Positions 2,077-45,999 of a DNA stretch of 46,504 nucleotides are shown one piece after another. The notes under the pieces were generated by a model. That model was given only the letters and a program-made list of their open reading frames with translations. It searched no databases and had not been told where the DNA came from. The stretch lies in contig CANGFK010000002.1 in assembly GCA_947452925.1 (NCBI GenBank), positions 1-46,504 on the forward strand. Reading direction: 5' to 3'. Made by a program: the position numbers and the translations under genes. Position 1 is the first letter of the stretch; each line of letters opens with the position of its first letter. Source of the DNA: Chitinophagaceae bacterium. GTDB lineage: Bacteria; Bacteroidota; Bacteroidia; Chitinophagales; Chitinophagaceae.

Positions 2077-2286
2077 AAATAGGTTTTATGGAAAAGCGTA
2101 CCAGTTTTACAGCAAAGCGGCTACGCTTTCTCATAAAACCTATACACTTTGCGACAACACTGGTACGTTCTGTCATAAAATCAAAAGGTTATGAGGTAAA
2201 ACCGGTACGCTTTGCCGCACAACCTATACGCTTTGTCACAACACCTTTCGGTTCTGTGATGAAACTGATCCATTTTGTAACAAAAA
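2077..2286. repeat. 21-bp degenerate tandem array 1 (about 8-10 units)
   Basis: Eight clear 21-bp units run from 2119 to 2286, with two poorer units at 2077-2118. The recurring core is TACGCTTTG followed by an A/C-rich half ending AAAC or ACAC. Units are only moderately alike (for example TATACGCTTTGTCAC, GGTACGCTTTGCCGC, TATACACTTTGCGAC), but spacing is exact. Because 21 is a multiple of 3, a plus-strand frame stays open at 2088-2408 and would give a 7-residue repeat such as PIRFVTT. I treat that frame as a by-product. The array abuts the hairpin at 2287-2323. Confidence 0.85.
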
Positions 2287-19242: not shown

Positions 19243-19431
19243 AAATAAATTAAACGGTGTAACGAATCATTTAAATGATACACCCTATAAAATAAATGGT
19301 GTAACAAATAAATTAAGTGATATATCATATAAAATAAACGGTGTATCATTTAAAACAGATGACATACCGTTTAAAATAAATGACGCACCGAATAAATTAA
19401 ATGATACATCAAATGAAATAAAAGGTACACC
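19243..19431. repeat. 21-bp degenerate tandem array 2 (9 units)
   Basis: Exactly nine 21-bp units, each an A/T-rich half (AAATAAATTAAA, CTATAAAATAAA and similar) followed by a variable TGGTGTAAC/TGATACACC-like half. It contains the perfect palindrome ATCATTTAAATGAT at about 19267-19280. The minus strand is open at 19164-19349 as a 7-residue repeat (for example VIHRLFY-like), which I judge a by-product. It lies after the adk terminator and before the 142-bp repeat. Confidence 0.88.
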
Positions 19432-36019: not shown

Positions 36020-36129
36020 ATCCTTAATTCGATTTTACATTTTGGTTCATCCCTTAATGATAACTCAAATATAAAGACAGTTTGGGGGATATTGACTACA
36101 TCGTCCCCCAAAATGCTAATAAAAACAGC

Positions 36130-36318
36130 CAATATATACATGTATATGGTCAATATATTCATATATATATCCAATATAGAGTAGTATATGGCGAGTATAT
36201 ACATGTATATGGTCGATATATTCATATATATATTCAATATAGAGTAGTATATGGTGGGTATATACATGTATATGCTCAATATATTCATGTATATATCGTC
36301 CATATTCATGAATATATT
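36130..36318. repeat. 21-bp tandem array 3 (9 units, 63-bp higher-order repeat)
   Basis: Exactly nine 21-bp units. Three unit types follow in order A-B-C, A-B-C, A-B-(variant): A holds the perfect palindrome ATATACATGTATAT, B holds ATATATTCATATATAT and C holds ATATAGAGTAGTATAT. So a 63-bp block is repeated, with units 21 bp apart. Both strands remain open across it, which gives misleading 7-residue-repeat frames (such as YIHVYGQ). The array lies in the 402-bp divergent spacer between the SUMF1 gene and the 36422 gene. The rest of that spacer holds only promoters. Confidence 0.92.
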
Positions 36319-37042: not shown

Positions 37043-37183
37043 TTGATAATTTATAATTGACAATGGATAATTGAGTTGATTGTTAATTAGAAAAGGGACT
37101 CAGCTATTTTAAAGTATCTGAGTCCCTTTTTCTTTTCCAAAGGTTTTCTAATTATCCATTGTCAATTATAAATTATCCATTAA
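37039..37183. repeat. 34-bp long-stem inverted repeat enclosing a terminator
   Basis: 37039-37072 pairs with 37150-37183 at 33 of 34 positions. The arms are made of 7-bp words (AATTGAT, AATTTAT, AATTGAC, AATGGAT). The 77-bp loop contains the terminator at 37091-37130. The stop codon of the plus-strand gene (37040-37042) lies in the left arm and that of kup (37180-37182) in the right arm. Confidence 0.9.
37091..37130. terminator. Terminator between two convergent genes, inside a larger stem
   Basis: AAAAGGGACTCAG (37091-37103) pairs with CTGAGTCCCTTTT (37118-37130), 13 bp, with A/T tracts on both sides. Confidence 0.88.
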
Positions 37184-39195
37184 TGTGCGCCAATCCTTTT
37201 GAGCGGAATATGCTGAACAGGTGCTAATACCAACGGTATCTTTTCTATGGCAGTATCGCTCCAATCCAATCCAAACGCTTTTTTGTCGGATTGAGCAATC
37301 TTACTGATAGCAAAATAGGAGTTCAGAATGAAGCCTTCCTTGAGAGAGAATTCATTTTCTACCGATAAGAAACGTTGAATAATCACATAGCGGATATCGC
37401 CAGAAATGTTAAGCTTATTCAATGCCTTTTCATTTTCATTGGCACCCACATTCAATTCGTGATGCTCAACCATATCCTCCATTACCTTCTTAAACAATAA
37501 ATGAATGCGAGGCTGAATACGGAAACCAAGCTTGAACTCGATACGGATAATCTTGTCGTGTTCAATTTCCTCAACGGTATATTCCATGGTGTACGGCTCA
37601 TCTGTTCTATCGATATGTACAAACCAATAGACATCAGCCCTTTTAGGTCTTTTGGTGAGGATGGACTCCAGAACACGTTTTTCGATAGCCCTTTTATTGT
37701 TCGATTTAGAAAGATAAACCAAATGAGTAGCATATTTTGGCTCATCATGATTTTCACTCAACGTTTTTAAAGCAGGGATAAAATTGCTCAGGTTTTCGAA
37801 AATCAGGAACCTATTCGTAATCTTTTTAGCTTTAAACCAGATATACATTATAAATATCAACACAATCTCGAAGATTAAGAAAGGCCATCTGTTCTTTATT
37901 TTCTGAACATTAGCGAGGAAGAAAGAGAACTCTACAGTAACAAAAATCATCAAAATGAGGAAGATGAGTACCTGAGCCCATTTCTTCACAAACTTCATAT
38001 AATAGAACATTAACAGGGTGGTCATCAACATGGCAACGGTGATGGAGAAACCATACGCCGCTTGCATCTTTCCAGAGTCCTGGAAGTAAAGCATCATGCC
38101 CACACAACCTCCCCACAACAACCAGTTGATGCTTGGAATATAGATTTGACCCCTGATATTGGTTGGAAACTTGATGGTTATTTTTGGCCAGAAGCCCATA
38201 CTTACTGCTTCACTGATTAATGTAAATGAACCAGATATCAATGCCTGACTAGCGATGATGGTTGCCAAAGTAGAGATGATGATGCCGGGTAACAAAAACC
38301 AATGCGGCATGATTTCGAAGAATGGGTTTAGGGGTGTACTGCCATTGAAAACAAGGTATTTGTTGTGTAAGCTATCTTGCACCAACTCCTTGTTATCTGT
38401 CCAAAGTAACCAAGCAGCTTGTCCGAAATAGTTGGCTAACAATGAAATTTTTACAAATAACCAACTCATCTGAATGTTCTTTTTACCACAATGACCCAAA
38501 TCTGAGTACAGTGCTTCTGCCCCTGTGGTACACAAAAACACAGAGCCTAGTATGAAAAATCCACCAATCTTATGATCGGATAATAACTCGATGGCATAAT
38601 AAGGATTGATGGCAGCCAAAATTTGTGGATGATGTGCAATATTTACTACACCCAGATACATAATCATACTAAACCAGATGAACATGATGGGTCCGAATGA
38701 GCTACCGACCACCTTGGTTCCGAACTGTTGAAAGAAGAAGAGCAAGGAAATGATTGCTATTACGATACTGATGGTCAGTGTATTGCCGGGTACAATTATT
38801 TTCTCTAATCCATGAACTCCATTCAAACCTTCAATAGCAGAGGCAACTGAAATTGGAGGAGTAATGATGCCATCAGCCAACAATGTTCCTGCGCCAACAA
38901 TGGCGGGGAAGTACAGCCAATGACGATACCGCCACACAAGCGCATAAAGTGAAAAGATGCCACCCTCGCCTTTATTGTCAGCCTGAAGCGTGAGTAAAAT
39001 GTACTTGAAGGTTGTTTGAAGGGTAAGTGTCCAAAAGACACAAGACACACCGCCATAAACCAAGGCGGGATCAATTTTGTTTGTACCAATGATAGCACTA
39101 AAAACGTAGAGAGGAGAAGTTCCGATGTCACCGAAGATGATTCCGATAGTAACTAAAAGACCAGCAGCAGTAACTTTTTTCAAGTTGGGGTTCAT
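37180..39195 (-). CDS. kup: Kup-family K+:H+ symporter (copy 1)
   Basis: A potassium uptake transporter. The N-terminal GIIFGDIGTSPLYVFSAII is the Kup signature, followed by about 12 transmembrane helices to around residue 455 (ITPPISVASAIEGLNG, FLCTTGAEALYSDLGHCG). A cytoplasmic C-terminal domain runs to residue 671. Kup is constitutive in other bacteria. It is divergent from a second kup gene (39623), so the two share a 427-bp promoter region. The C-terminus ends HIPLKRIGAH. The stop lies in an inverted-repeat arm. Confidence 0.95.
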   Translation of the reverse strand: MNPNLKKVTAAGLLVTIGIIFGDIGTSPLYVFSAIIGTNKIDPALVYGGVSCVFWTLTLQTTFKYILLTLQADNKGEGGIFSLYALVWRYRHWLYFPAIVGAGTLLADGIITPPISVASAIEGLNGVHGLEKIIVPGNTLTISIVIAIISLLFFFQQFGTKVVGSSFGPIMFIWFSMIMYLGVVNIAHHPQILAAINPYYAIELLSDHKIGGFFILGSVFLCTTGAEALYSDLGHCGKKNIQMSWLFVKISLLANYFGQAAWLLWTDNKELVQDSLHNKYLVFNGSTPLNPFFEIMPHWFLLPGIIISTLATIIASQALISGSFTLISEAVSMGFWPKITIKFPTNIRGQIYIPSINWLLWGGCVGMMLYFQDSGKMQAAYGFSITVAMLMTTLLMFYYMKFVKKWAQVLIFLILMIFVTVEFSFFLANVQKIKNRWPFLIFEIVLIFIMYIWFKAKKITNRFLIFENLSNFIPALKTLSENHDEPKYATHLVYLSKSNNKRAIEKRVLESILTKRPKRADVYWFVHIDRTDEPYTMEYTVEEIEHDKIIRIEFKLGFRIQPRIHLLFKKVMEDMVEHHELNVGANENEKALNKLNISGDIRYVIIQRFLSVENEFSLKEGFILNSYFAISKIAQSDKKAFGLDWSDTAIEKIPLVLAPVQHIPLKRIGAH

Positions 39196-39622: not shown

Positions 39623-41617
39623 ATGCACCCTACTTCAAAAAAGGTTACAGCAGCAGGCTTACTGATCGCACTAGGAATTATTTATGGGGATATTGGTACT
39701 TCTCCGCTTTATGTTCTGAACGCCATCGTAAAGGGGAGAGCTATCACAGAGGAATTGATTTTTGGATCACTTTCTTGTATTATCTGGACGCTTACCCTTC
39801 AAACTACCATTAAATATGTAATTCTCACTCTGAAAGCCGACAACAAAGGCGAGGGTGGGATTTTTAGTTTATATGCGTTGGTGCGAAGGAGAAAAAGGTG
39901 GTTGGTGTTACCAGCAATGATTGGCGGTGCCGCACTATTGGCCGATGGCATCATTACCCCACCCATTTCTGTAACGTCTGCTATTGAAGGTTTACAACAA
40001 TTGCCTGTTTTTCATGATATCGAAACCAAGACAATTGTGGTTATAGTAATTGGGGTTATATCTTCCCTTTTTGTACTCCAGCAATTTGGAACGGCATCTA
40101 TTGGTAAACTATTTGGCCCATTGATGGGTATTTGGTTTAGCATGTTGGCTATACTTGGTTTGTCACATTTGGCAGACGACTTTAGTATTTTCAAAGCATT
40201 GAGCCCACACTATGCAATTGAACTACTTACTTTTTATCCTAAAGGTTTCTGGATATTGGGTGCAGTGTTCTTGTGTACCACAGGGGCAGAAGCACTGTAC
40301 TCAGATTTGGGTCATTGTGGTAAGGAGAACATCCGTTATTCTTGGGTATTTGTAAAAATGTGTCTAGTTCTGAATTACCTAGGTCAGGGCGCTTGGTTGT
40401 TGGCCAATTATAAAAATCATGTAATTCCTCTTGCGGATTTTGATGCAGGCTTCAATCCATTTTTTGGAGTGATGCCACCGTGGTTTAAATTAATTGGGAT
40501 TATTATAGCAACTGTAGCTGCCATTATTGCTAGTCAGGCATTGATATCTGGTTCATTTACCTTGATAGCAGAAGCGATGAGACTTAACCTATGGCCCAAA
40601 ATGAAAATAATTTATCCAACAGAAGAGAAGGGTCAATTATTTATTCCTGGCATCAACTGGTTGTTGTGGGGAGGTTGCTTGGGTATAGTGCTTTTCTTTC
40701 AAAAATCTACCAATATGGAGGCCGCCTATGGTCTTGCCATTACGTTGTGTATGATTAGTACATCCATACTTTTTGCCAACTTCTTAGTGCGACATCGAAC
40801 GCTTCCTATCTGGATATATTTATATCTAGCTGTTTATATCACCATAGAATGTTCTTTCTTAATTGCCAATCTGGAGAAGTTCCCACATGGTGGTTATGTT
40901 ACCTTACTAGTAGGTGGCGGTCTTTTTTGGGTGATGTATGTATGGTTTAGGAGTCGTAAAATCAAGAATAGGTATATTGAGTTTGTAAAGTTGCAGTCCT
41001 ACCTTCCTATGATAAAAGATTTGATGAAGGACGAAACGGTACCAATCTACTCTACTCACTTGGTTTATATGACCAGTGCAACCAATGCAAAAGAAATAGA
41101 GCATAAAATAATGTATTCTATTTTGAACATGAAACCCAAAAGAGCAAATGTGTATTGGTTTGTACACGTTGAAATATTGGATGATCCTTATTCTTGTGAA
41201 TATTATGTAGACCAGATAGTGCCTAATGAAATCTTCAGGGTTGAATTCAGACTAGGCTTTAGGGTTGAACAAAAAATTACACTCATGTTGAAGCAAGTAA
41301 TACAAGACATGGTTGCTGAAAAAGAAGTGAATGTTTTGAGTCGATTCCCAAGTTTAGCAAAAAACAATATTCCTGGTGACTACCGAGTGATTGTTATGGA
41401 AAAATTCTTGAGCAGAGATAATGAGTTGCCATTGTTGGAAAGAATAATTATGCGTTTCTATTTCTGGTTCAAAGAAATTAGTTTAAGTGAAGAAAGAGGC
41501 TTTGGGTTGGATACAAGTACTGTAACTGTAGAAAAGTTCCCGCTTATGATTTCTCCAGTAAGTAAGTTGAATTTGAAACGGGTTACCCACGCAATTCACC
41601 CACATGCACACCATTAA
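39623..41617 (+). CDS. kup: Kup-family K+:H+ symporter (copy 2)
   Basis: A paralogue of the neighbouring copy, starting with an almost identical N-terminus (KKVTAAGLL, IIYGDIGTSPLYVLNAIV). About 12 transmembrane helices (GTSPLYVL, ITPPISVTSAIEG, FLCTTGAEALYSDLGHCG) and a C-terminal cytoplasmic domain of about 200 residues. 664 residues. The closeness of the two copies suggests gene duplication with inversion; sequence divergence in helices 9-12 and the tail implies it is not recent. A terminator follows at 41621-41653. Confidence 0.95.
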   Translation: MHPTSKKVTAAGLLIALGIIYGDIGTSPLYVLNAIVKGRAITEELIFGSLSCIIWTLTLQTTIKYVILTLKADNKGEGGIFSLYALVRRRKRWLVLPAMIGGAALLADGIITPPISVTSAIEGLQQLPVFHDIETKTIVVIVIGVISSLFVLQQFGTASIGKLFGPLMGIWFSMLAILGLSHLADDFSIFKALSPHYAIELLTFYPKGFWILGAVFLCTTGAEALYSDLGHCGKENIRYSWVFVKMCLVLNYLGQGAWLLANYKNHVIPLADFDAGFNPFFGVMPPWFKLIGIIIATVAAIIASQALISGSFTLIAEAMRLNLWPKMKIIYPTEEKGQLFIPGINWLLWGGCLGIVLFFQKSTNMEAAYGLAITLCMISTSILFANFLVRHRTLPIWIYLYLAVYITIECSFLIANLEKFPHGGYVTLLVGGGLFWVMYVWFRSRKIKNRYIEFVKLQSYLPMIKDLMKDETVPIYSTHLVYMTSATNAKEIEHKIMYSILNMKPKRANVYWFVHVEILDDPYSCEYYVDQIVPNEIFRVEFRLGFRVEQKITLMLKQVIQDMVAEKEVNVLSRFPSLAKNNIPGDYRVIVMEKFLSRDNELPLLERIIMRFYFWFKEISLSEERGFGLDTSTVTVEKFPLMISPVSKLNLKRVTHAIHPHAHH

Positions 41618-41655: not shown

Positions 41656-43338
41656 TTAACTCATCAGGTTAAAATAGAAATTACTACCTCCCCCATATTT
41701 ACTTTCCACGTGGATGGTGCCCCCTTGTGCTTCAATAAACTCTTTACTGATGGCAAGGCCCAATCCTGTTCCAGATTTGCTAGTTCCGGGCACTTGAAAA
41801 TATCTGTCGAATATTTTACTGATGTATTTTGTCTCTATCCCTTTGCCATTATCTTTTACTGAGAAAGTAACGAGTTGCTCATTCTTATTAATCTCAATCA
41901 CAACTTCTCCATTTTCGGGACTGTAGCGAATAGCATTCGTTAGAAAGTTTATTAATACCCAAGCTGTCTTCTCTTTGTCTGCTTTTACGTTTGGCAAATC
42001 TTCTGATGTTTTTGTAATAATCGTTATTTGCTTTTGCTCTGCTTGAACCTTTACAGCCTCAGTTGCATATTTCAAAATATCAAAAGGGCTGCAGAGCTGT
42101 ATGTTCAGTTGGATATTACCGGTTTCAACCTGAGACATATTCAACAGTTCTCCGGTTATTTTTAGTAACCTGTTGCTATCGTCTTTAATACTTTCTACCA
42201 ACAAAGCCTGTTCTTCATTTAGTGAACCAGTATTGGCACTCCTCAACAACTGTAAACTCATTTTTATGGAAGCAATTGGTGTCTTTAATTCGTGCGAAAC
42301 CGTAGCAATAAAATTGGTTTTTGCTTCATTCAATTCGTGGAAAGGGGTAATGTTTCGCAATACTATCACCTCCCCAATGACGTTTCCTTCATTGCTCACC
42401 TTCAACACATCCTTGTTGAAATAGCTTTCCTTGTTGTCAGCGTAAATCTTCAATTCATGTTGGTCTTCATCTTGCAATAGTCTGCGCATCAAATCATTTT
42501 GCAGGGCAATGTCTGGTGCATATTGACCAATAATATCCTTTTCTTTCAGTGCCAAAACCTTTTCAGAAACCACATTCAAAAACAAGATGTTCTTATTTTC
42601 ATCAAATCCAATAATGCCGTCACGCATTTGGTTGATGATGGTTTCAATCCTTCTTTTCTCAAATGTAATCTTTGCCAGATTGCTATTTTCATACTCGTCC
42701 AGCTTCTCTGTCATTGTATTGATGGCATCCGCTAGTTCCTTAAACTCATCTTCTTGATCCAGATGAATTCTGTTTTTATAATTCTTATTTGCAATTTCTT
42801 TAATCCCTTTTGCCAAGGCTTTAACGGGTGTAGAAATTACATCGGGAAAGTTGACAGTCAGCGTAAAGGAGATAATGGTGAGCACCGAGAAGATGATGGT
42901 CAGCCAAAAAATAGCACTACTAGCCGACTTCTGAGCATTTTCATTTTTTCTTAGGATGGCATTTTGGTTTATATTATTTATCCTTTGTATGTTGAGTAAT
43001 AAATCTTTATACTTACTACTATCGCTAGGATTTCTTTTCAACCTCTCAAAACTTAAGCGCAATTGCTTGGTGGCATCACCTTCACCAAACTCGGTAATAT
43101 TATTTTCTTGCTTTGCTAGGTTTATTTCAAAATCTGAAAATGCTTGCTTATTAACCGACAACTCATCCAAGTCTTTCAACATATTGTTGTCATAAACTAA
43201 TGTTTCGTAGTTGTTTTTTAAAATATTGTTTGCATCACTGCTCAATTTGCTGATAGAAACTATGCCCAATATCCCAAACACCAATATTACGATGAAAAGG
43301 AAACCGATACCCACCGTCAACTTTGCCTTTAATTTCAT
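41656..43338 (-). CDS. Sensor histidine kinase, the kinase half of the Kdp system
   Basis: A 560-residue membrane kinase: TM1 at about 7-29, periplasmic domain 30-140, TM2 at about 143-165, HAMP (166-220), PAS (about 225-335) and HisKA with phospho-acceptor His349 in FIATVSHELKTPI. The ATPase domain has N box NFLTNAIRYSPENG, G1 DNGKGIE and G2 GTGLGLAIS. It overlaps the KdpD sensor gene by 1 nt (TAATG), so the two are translationally coupled and probably form one sensor split over two proteins. The response regulator (KdpE) is not in the window. Its stop lies at the terminator 41621-41653. Confidence 0.92.
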   Translation of the reverse strand: MKLKAKLTVGIGFLFIVILVFGILGIVSISKLSSDANNILKNNYETLVYDNNMLKDLDELSVNKQAFSDFEINLAKQENNITEFGEGDATKQLRLSFERLKRNPSDSSKYKDLLLNIQRINNINQNAILRKNENAQKSASSAIFWLTIIFSVLTIISFTLTVNFPDVISTPVKALAKGIKEIANKNYKNRIHLDQEDEFKELADAINTMTEKLDEYENSNLAKITFEKRRIETIINQMRDGIIGFDENKNILFLNVVSEKVLALKEKDIIGQYAPDIALQNDLMRRLLQDEDQHELKIYADNKESYFNKDVLKVSNEGNVIGEVIVLRNITPFHELNEAKTNFIATVSHELKTPIASIKMSLQLLRSANTGSLNEEQALLVESIKDDSNRLLKITGELLNMSQVETGNIQLNIQLCSPFDILKYATEAVKVQAEQKQITIITKTSEDLPNVKADKEKTAWVLINFLTNAIRYSPENGEVVIEINKNEQLVTFSVKDNGKGIETKYISKIFDRYFQVPGTSKSGTGLGLAISKEFIEAQGGTIHVESKYGGGSNFYFNLMS

Positions 43339-44465
43339 TACGATAGTATTAAAATGTCAATTTCTGAGGCTGACAATTTATTTAATAATTGATTGAAAAC
43401 TGCAGAACTCAATATCACATTCCAAATTGTAAGATGTGGTTTACCAATACAAATAGTCGTAATACCTTTCTGCTCTGAAGCTTCAAAAATACCCCTTGCA
43501 ATGTTTTTATTTTTCAATCGTATAACTTCTCCTCCCAATTCTGCTGCCATCTTAAAGTTATTAATCAAATGACGTTGTTCGGCAAGTCCAATATTATCTC
43601 CACTTTCGCTTGGTGTCTGCACATATAACAAGAACCATTTGCTATTGTAAGAAGAAGCCATCCGCGCAGTTTTGCGAATAACCTTTTTGGCAATATCATG
43701 GTTGCTACTAATGCACGCCATAAAACGTTCGGGTTTCAGTTGGGCGTTTCTGGGTATTTCAATTTCAATTTTTCGTTCTACCTGGCTTGCCACTTCCTTC
43801 AATGCCAATTCGCGAAGCTGTAGAATCTTCTCGCTTTTAAAGAAATTATTAAGGGAAATTTGAATCTTATCCGGCGTGTAAATCTTTCCTTCTTTTAGTC
43901 GGATAATGAGTTCATCTGACGTTAAATCGATGTTTACCACTTCATCCGCCTGCTGCAAAACGCTATCAGGAATCCTTTCCGATACGCTGATGCCCGTAAT
44001 GTTCTTCACTTCATTGTTCAGACTTTCAATGTGTTGGATGTTTACAGCACTTATTACGTTGATGCCTGCATCCAAAATATCCATCACATCTTTCCAACGC
44101 TTATCGTTTTTACTTCCCTCTATGTTCGAGTGTGCCAATTCGTCAACAATCACCACTTCGGGATGCAGATTTAGCACTGCTTGCAAATCAAACTCTTCCA
44201 GTTCCTTGCCTTTATAAAACAATTTCCTTCGAGGAACAATGGGCAGTCCATCCAGCAACTCATGTGTTTCCTTTCGGTTATGTGTTTCTATATACCCAAT
44301 CTTAATGTCCACTCCACTCCTCAAAAGGCTATGCGCTTCTTGTAGCATCCGGTAGGTTTTGCCCACGCCAGCACTCATTCCTATATAAATTTTAAACTTT
44401 CCACGCCTGCTTTTGCGTATCAAGTCTAGAAAGTGTTCCGCATTATTTCTTACTTCTTCTGGCAT
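43338..44465 (-). CDS. kdpD: KdpD-type K+ sensor protein without kinase domains
   Basis: 375 residues: an N-terminal KdpD domain with Walker A GMSAGVGKT (29-37), the Walker B-like VVIVDELAHSN, then a universal-stress-protein-like domain (about 250-375). In E. coli these two domains precede membrane and kinase parts in one polypeptide; here the protein ends after them and the kinase is a separate gene overlapping it by 1 nt. In Bacteroidota this split form is common. It reports K+ or turgor state to the kinase and thus to kdp expression. An array of 21-bp repeats lies between it and kdpC. Confidence 0.93.
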   Translation of the reverse strand: MPEEVRNNAEHFLDLIRKSRRGKFKIYIGMSAGVGKTYRMLQEAHSLLRSGVDIKIGYIETHNRKETHELLDGLPIVPRRKLFYKGKELEEFDLQAVLNLHPEVVIVDELAHSNIEGSKNDKRWKDVMDILDAGINVISAVNIQHIESLNNEVKNITGISVSERIPDSVLQQADEVVNIDLTSDELIIRLKEGKIYTPDKIQISLNNFFKSEKILQLRELALKEVASQVERKIEIEIPRNAQLKPERFMACISSNHDIAKKVIRKTARMASSYNSKWFLLYVQTPSESGDNIGLAEQRHLINNFKMAAELGGEVIRLKNKNIARGIFEASEQKGITTICIGKPHLTIWNVILSSAVFNQLLNKLSASEIDILILS

Positions 44466-44532
44466 ACCGTAAAGTTATGTTTGAGCCGATTAAGAATGAA
44501 TTAAAAGGACTATAATATTCTTTTGTAGACGG

Positions 44533-44763
44533 CCTAACTCATTTAGGGGGAGTCCTAACTCATTTAGGGGGAGTCCTAACTCATTTAGGGGGAGTCCTAA
44601 TTCATTTAGGGGAAGTCCTAATTCATTTAGGAGGAGTCCTAATTCATTTAGGGGGAGTCCTAATTCATTTAGGAGGAGTCCTAATTCATTTAGGGGAAGT
44701 CCTAATTCATTTAGGAGAAGTCCTAATTCATTTAGGAGAAGTCCTAATTCATTTAGGCGACCA
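44533..44763. repeat. 21-bp tandem array 4 (11 units) in the kdpC-kdpD spacer
   Basis: Eleven units begin at 44533 and every 21 bp thereafter, with a degenerate twelfth at 44764 that runs into the kdpC stop. Each unit holds the near-palindrome CCTAATTCATTTAGG plus a 6-bp linker such as GGAGTC-like. This is the best-conserved array: changes are limited to a few positions. In kdp mRNA each unit would form a small stem (CCUAA/UUAGG, 5 bp). No gene in 44466-44777 otherwise. Confidence 0.95.
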
Positions 44764-44777
44764 CCTAATCCGTCCTA

Positions 44778-45341
44778 TTACTTCAATTCATCCAAAGCAA
44801 TGTTTAACTTCAAAACATTTACTTTTTCAGGCCCTAATATTCCTAATAAAGGCTTTTCCACATGTGCATTTACCAATGCAAGCACTTTATCGGGAGCGAG
44901 GTTACGTACTTTGGCAATCCTGTTCACTTGTACCAATGCACCCTGCACACTAATATTAGGATCTAAGCCACTAGCAGAAGCTGTAACTAAATCGGCGGGT
45001 ATTTCTTCTTTTTTTACGGTAGGATTATGTACCAAAAAACTATCGATAGCAGCATCAACCCCTTTCAGATAAGCACTATCACTAGGGCCTTTATTGCTAC
45101 CTCCCGAACCGGCGGCATTGTAGCCAACAGCCGAAGGACGGCTGTAGAAATATTTATCTAGTGTAAACTTTTGACCTTCATTGGCATAACCAACTACTTT
45201 GCCATTTACCGTTAACGTTTCTCCTTTTCCGCCCCCTGGCGCAAACTTAGCAATACCTGCTATCAACAATGGATACAGTCCTCCAAGGACAGCTATAAAA
45301 ACTAGCGTAAGTATCAGAGCAGGAAATAGATGTTTTTTCAT
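44778..45341 (-). CDS. kdpC: K+-transporting ATPase subunit C
   Basis: Small membrane subunit that stabilises the KdpFABC complex and helps ATP binding by KdpB. From the ATG at 45341 (MKKHLFPALILTLVF) it has 187 residues, with one N-terminal transmembrane helix (LILTLVFIAVLGGLYPLLIA) and the family's YFYSRPSAVGYNAAGSGGSN and SGLDPNISVQGALVQVNRIAK. The longer frame to 45452 would add 37 residues from the opposing antitoxin gene and is rejected. It is separated from kdpB by an oppositely oriented toxin-antitoxin module. Confidence 0.95.
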   Translation of the reverse strand: MKKHLFPALILTLVFIAVLGGLYPLLIAGIAKFAPGGGKGETLTVNGKVVGYANEGQKFTLDKYFYSRPSAVGYNAAGSGGSNKGPSDSAYLKGVDAAIDSFLVHNPTVKKEEIPADLVTASASGLDPNISVQGALVQVNRIAKVRNLAPDKVLALVNAHVEKPLLGILGPEKVNVLKLNIALDELK

Positions 45342-45352
45342 TTTATTTGTTT

Positions 45353-45360
45353 TAGATTTG
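45353..45360 (+). promoter_or_regulatory. Candidate -7 box of the PIN-toxin module
   Basis: TAGATTTG fits TAnnTTTG, 14 nt before the antitoxin ATG. It lies only 12 bp from the start codon of kdpC on the other strand, so the two leaders overlap. Confidence 0.45.
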
Positions 45361-45374
45361 ACGAAAATAAATTT

Positions 45375-45596
45375 ATGTACAGAAAAATAATCGATGTTGT
45401 GAATGAAGAAAACCTCTTCATTCAGCTTCCCAAAGAATACCTCAATAAACAAGTTGAGGTGATTGCCTTTGAAGTAGAAAAGACCAACGAAAAAATCGAT
45501 AAGAAGAAGTTTGAAGAAGCAATGGCTTTCTTTAGTACTTTAAATGTTGACATGAGTAATTTTAAATTTAATCGTGATGAAGCCAACGAGCGTTAA
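45375..45596 (+). CDS. Probable antitoxin of the PIN-toxin module
   Basis: 73 residues from the ATG at 45375 (MYRKIIDVVNEENLFIQLPK). The first part resembles the strand pattern of AbrB/SpoVT-type or related antitoxins; the tail (KKKFEEAMAFFSTLNVDMSN) is helical. It overlaps the toxin start by 20 nt. The assignment rests on position and size. Confidence 0.7.
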   Translation: MYRKIIDVVNEENLFIQLPKEYLNKQVEVIAFEVEKTNEKIDKKKFEEAMAFFSTLNVDMSNFKFNRDEANER

Positions 45597-45999
45597 ATGT
45601 TTCCTAGATTCTAACATCATTTTATATTTAAATGAGAATGATGGAACTTATAAAAAAGACATCGTTACTAATATTTTACTGCCAAAGCCATTTGTTAGTA
45701 GCCAAGTAATATTTGAATGTCTTAATGTTTGTTTAAAAAAATTCAAGTACCCAAAGGAAAAAGCAATAATGTTTGTTCTTTATCTTTTTGAAACTTGCAC
45801 TGTTGTAAGTGAAGAAAAAGAAACTTGCATACTAGCTCTTGATTTATTTTCAAAATATCATTTTCAGCCTTACGATTCCAAAATTGTTGCCTCTGCTTTA
45901 AATTCAGGTTGCAGAACCTTGTACTCAGAAGACATGCAAAATGGGCTTGTTGTTAATAATAAATTGACCATAACCAATCCATTTTTACAATTTAACTAA
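45577..45999 (+). CDS. PIN-domain toxin (VapC-like)
   Basis: A 140-residue PIN-domain endoribonuclease. Putative acidic residues: D11 ([10 protein letters not shown]), E47 ([10 protein letters not shown]), D100 ([11 protein letters not shown]) and D119 (LYSEDMQNG). A GTG at 45574 is an alternative start. Its stop overlaps the end of kdpB on the other strand by 3 nt. It stands inside the kdp gene series. Confidence 0.85.

Follow-up and report, generated by a model that had tools for sequence, protein, structure and literature searches.

The DNA analysed here (hereafter the window, a stretch of 46,504 nucleotides from contig CANGFK010000002.1 of a Chitinophagaceae bacterium) raises the question of why eleven nearly identical units of 21 bp should separate kdpC from kdpD. 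An earlier sequence-only reading held that these units would form successive small stems along the kdp mRNA, which could tune kdpD expression relative to kdpABC or protect the upstream mRNA, or else that they are a multi-site DNA target. The comparisons reported below indicate that the kdp array is not a kdp-specific feature: it is one member of a genus-wide satellite population. The features of the locus are as follows, with genes assigned by Pfam.

41656..43338, minus strand: gene for a separate histidine kinase with HAMP, PAS, HisKA and HATPase domains, located downstream of kdpD
43338..44465, minus strand: kdpD sensor domain gene (PF02702)
44533..44763, no strand assigned: kdp array of eleven 21-bp units; on the plus strand the unit reads CCTAA(T/C)TCATTTAGG followed by a 6-bp spacer (GGGAGT and variants)
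44764..44777, no strand assigned: partial twelfth unit (CCTAATC...) reaching the kdpC stop, recognised from the sequence
44778..45452, minus strand: kdpC (PF02669)

Eleven cores spaced by 21 bp were recovered, the first at 44533 and the last at 44743 (11 matches against a shuffle mean of 0.04, with 0 of 100 shuffles reaching 11), in agreement with what had been read from the letters. Eight of the 11 are CCTAATTCATTTAGG and three are CCTAACTCATTTAGG, and the first three cores have a C at position 6. Two further elements of that reading hold, namely that the array is the best conserved among the 21-bp arrays of the window (TRF: 44533-44757, period 21, 10.7 copies, 95% match, 0% indels) and that it lies between kdpC and kdpD, both found by Pfam on the minus strand. 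After boundary refinement the array spans 44521-44769, at 8 bp from the end of the upstream gene. Heptanucleotide repeats such as those of the outgroups also register at lag 21, which is 3 x 7, as the kdp array does; a heptamer repeat is nevertheless ruled out as the identity of this array, whose self-match is 0.80 at lag 21 vs only 0.24 at 7 or 14 bp. Nor does the array have the form of a CRISPR, the units being contiguous and nearly identical, with no unique spacers between them.

Gene order suggests that the array lies inside the kdp operon. The annotated TTG start of kdpC is probably too long since the alignment begins at residue 38 in 6 of 10 relatives, and the likely start is an ATG near 45344. 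Some 540-650 bp (window 45453-45995) extend from kdpC to the end of a possible kdpB gene, detected through a weak HAD-hydrolase match below cut-off. The kdpD sensor gene is 98 to 71% identical to that of the 11 congeners with a match. Immediately 5' of its start, TAACTTTACGRT (window 44466-44480) is kept in 6 of the 9 genomes for which the full spacer was read, and may act as a promoter or in translation initiation; farther upstream the spacer is replaced between genomes. Two Kup-type potassium transporter genes (PF02705), located at 37180-39195 (minus strand) and 39623-41617 (plus strand), adjoin the kdp genes (43338 onward, minus strand), so that potassium uptake systems are clustered here.

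The period of the kdp array recurs along the window. In a scan of lags 10 to 60, lag 21 and its multiple 42 stand out, lag 12 appearing only at the loosest threshold with 12 positions, and three other arrays were delimited.

2080..2286, no strand assigned: degenerate 21-bp array, a weaker case (maximum self-match 63%)
19243..19427, no strand assigned: 21-bp array with alternating unit orientation (GGTGTA...TACACC); dyad symmetry p 0.04, and 0.15 after end refinement
36127..36316, no strand assigned: 21-bp array with a 63-bp higher order, located between divergent genes and made of TATA-type palindromes; p 0.005 for dyad symmetry

Over 387 kb of this genome (G000, window included), lag 21 marks 18 segments, lag 42 marks 24 and the best lags outside multiples of 21/42 mark 4, in a sample that is biased because contigs C46, C49, C61, C73, C114 and C371 were chosen for matching all or half of the kdp unit (C4 matched too). 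The unit sequence varies from array to array in this genome. There are perhaps some 100-200 satellite arrays per genome, by extrapolation from the 15 TRF arrays found on 326.5 kb (the window and ten larger contigs) of 3.37 Mb. Unit numbers rest on metagenome assemblies in which collapse or truncation is possible, and some arrays occur at or near contig ends (L184 7160-7400 on G010:C1, a 7400-base contig; L045 3203-3361 on a 3622-base contig), which suggests that longer arrays break assemblies and therefore that unit counts may be lower bounds. The TATA-type array of the window (36127-36316) has a near-identical counterpart with shared flanks at L034 9971-10158 (G000:C4:29971-30158), each lying between divergent genes of similar size, and the two look like the outcome of a duplicated spacer or segment.

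Across the genus, 37 of the 52 TRF arrays in 0.97 Mb have periods of 21, 42, 63 or 84 bp (rows kept at a period of at least 10, at least 2.5 copies and at least 60 bp), vs 2 of 12 at 21 bp in 1.71 Mb of outgroup genera, a set that includes one probable congener (L063, 13 kb, no match). Unfiltered, TRF returns more outgroup rows at 21, mostly of about 2 copies or of the 7-bp type and one with 3.1 copies (L072). Lag-scan matches were obtained in 11 of 13 genus genomes, that of G012 being heptamer-like as are two G009 arrays (L177), and none in the 45 kb sampled from G004 or the 56 kb sampled from G008, while all five outgroup lag-21 matches turned out to be 7-bp repeats on reading. Such seven-base tandem repeats, found in other genera (L056, L062, L086, L122) and at L177 within the genus, produce a false lag-21 signal. 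Among the 40 of the 52 TRF arrays with a period near 21, 42, 63 or 84 (82- and 83-bp rows left out), 29 have 0% indels. This is also the case for 8 of the 15 divergent arrays (<80% match), at 66-79% match, the other 7 carrying indels; detection at a fixed lag favours arrays without them.

The sequence-only reading had itself named absence of the array from close relatives, with kdpC/kdpD ratios unchanged, as counting against it. KdpD was found in 12 of the 13 genus genomes and kdpC is adjacent in 11, seven of which have clear 21-bp arrays at the junction (G000, G002, G003, G005, G006, G009 and G011). In G001 the gap holds three or four units that are weak, in G007 (587 bp, with a weak pattern at 0.60) it stays below the array threshold, and in G008 it is reduced to 2 bp. 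In the nearest relative, G010 (KdpD 98% identical), the G000 unit occurs once in the gap with flanks as in G000, so that absence is only half realised there, and assembly collapse is possible. The units were further compared in the 21 possible pairs among the seven arrays: those of G005 and G006 are clearly related (16/21 letters), those of G002 and G006 marginally so (13/21 letters, p 0.015), those of G000 and G009 only when gaps are allowed and those of G002 and G003 marginally with gaps (p 0.02), the remaining pairs being at chance. These pairwise tests imply at least four unit types at this single site when gapped matches are granted, and five or six otherwise. The units of G005 display nested recent expansions within an older degenerate array. 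In the named loci, kdpC is present in 75 of 80; outside the genus the kdpC-kdpD gap is 3-328 bp or at least 683 bp, and no 21-bp array of the kdp kind was seen there.

A 21-bp array also occurs in the cell-wall operon (L207 = G000:C3:37982-38188; L210-L213) between mraY (identified by PF00953 and the MraY signature) and murD (identified by its Mur ligase domains and the MurD N-terminal domain). It is clear in 5 of the 12 genus genomes in which the spacer is covered (G000, G001, G002, G003 and G005), the contig of G007 stopping short of it; the lag-21 maximum is borderline in G009 (0.60) and below threshold in G006 (0.55) and G010 (0.48), and no array was found in this spacer in G004, G008, G011 and G012. 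The five units are mutually related, sharing 12 to 19 of 21 letters with p<=0.05 for 7 of the 10 pairs, and their period is still 21: at mraY-murD the letters drift and the register stays. A third site, upstream of a C8 gene, showed an array by eye in G000 only among 12 spacers and carries little weight, its neighbours differing in at least G010.

With up to 2 mismatches, the kdp unit of G000 is matched 16 times within G000 itself (three contigs), 3 times in G005 and once in each of five other genomes, a level at which the reversed-unit control gave single matches in four genomes too. That of G003 has 17 matches within its own genome, spread over six contigs, 2 to 5 per genome in G002, G005, G006 and G010, and 0 in G000, while G003 has 1 match to the G000 unit. 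Array families are thus dispersed over loci and species-specific in abundance. The two arrays of CCTAA...TTAGG type both have GACGGCCTAA at their left edge (window 44526-44533; L043, G000:C61, near 3419) with unlike outer flanks, which may be a sign of how arrays get copied. Derivation of the kdp unit from a phage or virus was rejected, no match being found in phage records nor, for the exact 18-mer, in viral contigs. Counts of 4-, 5- and 6-mers over 26 arrays of G000 revealed a single common motif, the AT-rich ATTTA (11 arrays vs a 95% shuffled-maximum limit of 10). The arrays are therefore not a site set for one sequence-specific regulator, and of the multi-site DNA target proposed for kdp it is the sequence-independent form that survives.

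Placement relative to genes was read for 39 arrays, with uncurated ORF calls of at least 100 aa taken as genes and arrays inside ORFs or at edges dropped. Same-direction spacers hold 25 of them, divergent spacers 12 and convergent spacers 2; convergent spacers make up 2 of 45 classified, a depletion that is not significant by estimate. In same-direction spacers 20 of 25 arrays lie closer to the stop of the upstream gene than to the downstream start (median distances 48 bp from the stop and 183 bp from the start), and all arrays save one (20 bp) stay at least 40 bp away from start codons. Overlap with an ORF of at least 100 aa concerns 10 of 58 arrays, and some of these ORFs may be spurious. 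Such placement is as expected for tolerated sequence or for a DNA-level element with no need of a given transcript.

Unrelated unit sequences tend toward dyad symmetry. When each array was compared with its own reverse complement, using permuted unit columns as control, symmetry reached p<=0.05 in 34 of 50 arrays (those <105 bp or 7/14-bp periodic being dropped, here as in the G-T and A-C counts below), the kdp array having p 0.06. With refined ends, and at least four units left after trimming, 25 of 40 arrays reach p<=0.05 and the kdp array is borderline (p 0.05); the 15 arrays that lack significant symmetry count against the binding-protein account discussed below. These wider tests supersede an initial palindrome test of narrower scope, based on six consecutive consensus pairs, in which 19 of 60 arrays (the set at a threshold of at least 0.65) were perfect vs 4.6 expected and the rest were near null. 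Pairing letters do not covary unit by unit (455 observed vs 463.9 expected over 26 arrays, z -0.9); a z of 2.6 on untrimmed arrays was read as an edge effect, which disappeared once array ends were refined. A strict dimer site would require each unit to keep its symmetry, and the lack of covariation argues against one. Nor are G-U pairs favoured on the sense strand of the 16 directional arrays, where G-T was counted 164 times for 243 expected and A-C 182 times for 234. Symmetry without covariation, and G-T no better than A-C, point to symmetry of the founding unit at the DNA level and speak against selection on RNA stems.

These results bear directly on an RNA-level element, in which stems of the kdp mRNA would either attenuate the transcript or make it more stable and would determine the ratio of kdpC to kdpD, and which now appears improbable. 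The mRNA (minus) strand is predicted to fold better than its dinucleotide shuffles (-64.8 kcal/mol, z -2.85), but the opposite strand is predicted to fold better still (-81.4 kcal/mol, z -3.16). Moreover, the best mRNA fold would rely on long-range pairing of units, the eleven 5-bp stems amounting to -39.7 vs -64.8 kcal/mol (mean probability of the local stem 0.085; a single stem predicted to be worth -2.2), so that the chain of small stems is not the predicted state. In G005 and G006 the kdp arrays run the wrong way for RNA stems (G-T 4 and 3, A-C 37 and 21), 12 of the 39 arrays lie between divergent genes, and no Rfam family matched at E<=1 in 43900-45600. Tuning of kdpD relative to kdpABC and protection of the mRNA by stems are both left without support by same-period arrays at many unrelated sites, by kdp units that differ between species, and by the absence of G-U preference and of unit-by-unit pairing. 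Intrinsic curvature, by which 21 bp would repeat any bend in phase and curved DNA would be selected, has in its favour a period of two turns (10.55 bp per turn in the model); it is very unlikely in view of 42 arrays (at least 126 bp, not 7/14-bp periodic) whose curvature, predicted from wedge values, does not exceed that of the permuted-column control (9.76 vs 10.13; mean rank 0.535). Neither RNA pairing nor predicted curvature shows any sign of selection. Finally, de Bruijn assemblers start at k = 21, and the congeners traceable to records are all MAGs, so that assembler loops of this k could be imagined to mimic 21-bp arrays. Such an artefact is hardly credible: the units differ among themselves, 42- and 63-bp higher orders exist, related orthologous arrays occur in separate assemblies (at kdp in G005 and G006, at mraY-murD in five genomes) and arrays of this kind are lacking from other MAGs in the family.

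What has to be explained is that arrays unrelated in sequence have a common period and persist or turn over at orthologous sites. The best explanation, which we hold tentatively and place just short of an even chance, is a DNA-level satellite built on a ruler of two helical turns (21 bp) and dispensable at each site. The property shared by the arrays would be an exactly two-turn period, often on a dyad-symmetric founding unit; arrays would grow and shrink through slippage or recombination, spread by copying from site to site and be dispensable everywhere, kdp included, where a kdpC-kdpD spacer of about 315 bp would be a side effect. Their register may be kept by a symmetric, low-specificity DNA-binding protein assembling on one helical face, a possible though somewhat doubtful extension; any repeated 21-mer would then provide same-face avidity. 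The lack of a clear motif common to the arrays, the HU-family counts given below and the indels of 7 of the 15 divergent arrays also weigh against this extension. A neutral satellite with a mutational ruler, in which copying or slippage, helped by hairpins in palindromic seeds, would prefer 21-bp steps and nothing would read the arrays, is conceivable too while falling clearly short of probable. It would account for founding units that are symmetric with no unit-by-unit compensation, for arrays placed near stops and away from starts like tolerated filler, for absent or single units at orthologous sites of close relatives and for recent expansions nested in older degenerate arrays, as in G005. 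It accounts less readily for the divergent arrays devoid of indels and for the register kept across species at mraY-murD, since a register that outlasts letter divergence hints that phase is held after birth, and such a copying process has no known machinery.

A stronger form of the two-turn satellite, in which a protein or enzyme with a ruler of exactly two helical turns writes or reads 21-bp dyads whatever their letters, seems rather unlikely. If true, it would mean that a genome holds about 100-200 arrays of many unrelated sequences in one register, and that an array at an operon junction can be swapped between sister species for one of different sequence. The question "why 21 bp?" can be tested by comparison in this genus, which offers a dozen related genomes, array turnover at orthologous sites and outgroups that contrast sharply; such a comparison could ask for a gene gained with the arrays, for selection against indels or for protein binding in register. 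Such arrays are not to be taken for operon-specific RNA regulators.

Among known systems, REP/BIME elements with RAYT resemble the present arrays, as far as the accessible text of PMC3733652 goes, in being short palindromic intergenic repeats that are dispersed and species-specific, and differ from them in that many unrelated unit sequences coexist per genome here. The REP tag (GTAG or CGTC) is absent from either strand of 44533-44763, and the left flank of the kdp array reads GTAGACGG once, outside the units. PF01797 (Y1_Tnp) was found in 32 of 39 genomes, array-bearing or not, with low-scoring matches over cut-off in G000 (3) and G010 (1) and none in G009. No association of Y1_Tnp genes with arrays was seen that would mark RAYT as the machinery, and the same holds for HU, whose family counts (1-4 per genome) do not track the arrays. 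The tandem repeats of Borgs, in the portions available of PMC9879509 and PMC12660748, are likewise locus-specific, fast-evolving direct repeats of spacers that differ between close relatives; their units, however, show no mismatches and come in several lengths, and about half of them are located within genes, whereas those described here have one length and are imperfect and mostly intergenic.

Tandem repeats of constant size and variable sequence have been called enigmatic in print. Their original description is reportedly that of Subirana & Messeguer in J Bacteriol in 2020. No published arrays of the present genus were found in the open literature, subscription papers apart, the 2020 paper among them. 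According to the accessible parts of PMC8161180 (Subirana & Messeguer), such bacterial repeats measure 20-23 nt in many groups and, in Bacillus, either 20-21 or 52 nt, form several families per genome that are partly conserved between strains, and have a species-characteristic short sequence in many species though not all; the authors point out that 20-21 nt corresponds to two helical turns and propose either a protein that polymerises along DNA or small RNAs. Further context is given, to the extent of the text available, by a 2019 survey of the same authors (PMC6749651) and by a transcription study (PMC8625621). Compared with what these portions describe, the present arrays share a period near two helical turns, several unrelated species-specific families per genome, a mostly non-coding location and partial conservation between relatives. 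They differ in being strictly of 21 bp (and 42, 63 and 84) within one Chitinophagaceae genus, in having, unlike the Bacillus repeats, no characteristic short motif common to the arrays of a genome, and in that dyad symmetry was tested statistically. In size, family structure and non-coding location the arrays of this genus match the published kind, to which the present analysis adds (with possible overlap with the 2020 paper) a comparison of orthologous sites, a symmetry statistic and negative tests of RNA pairing and curvature.
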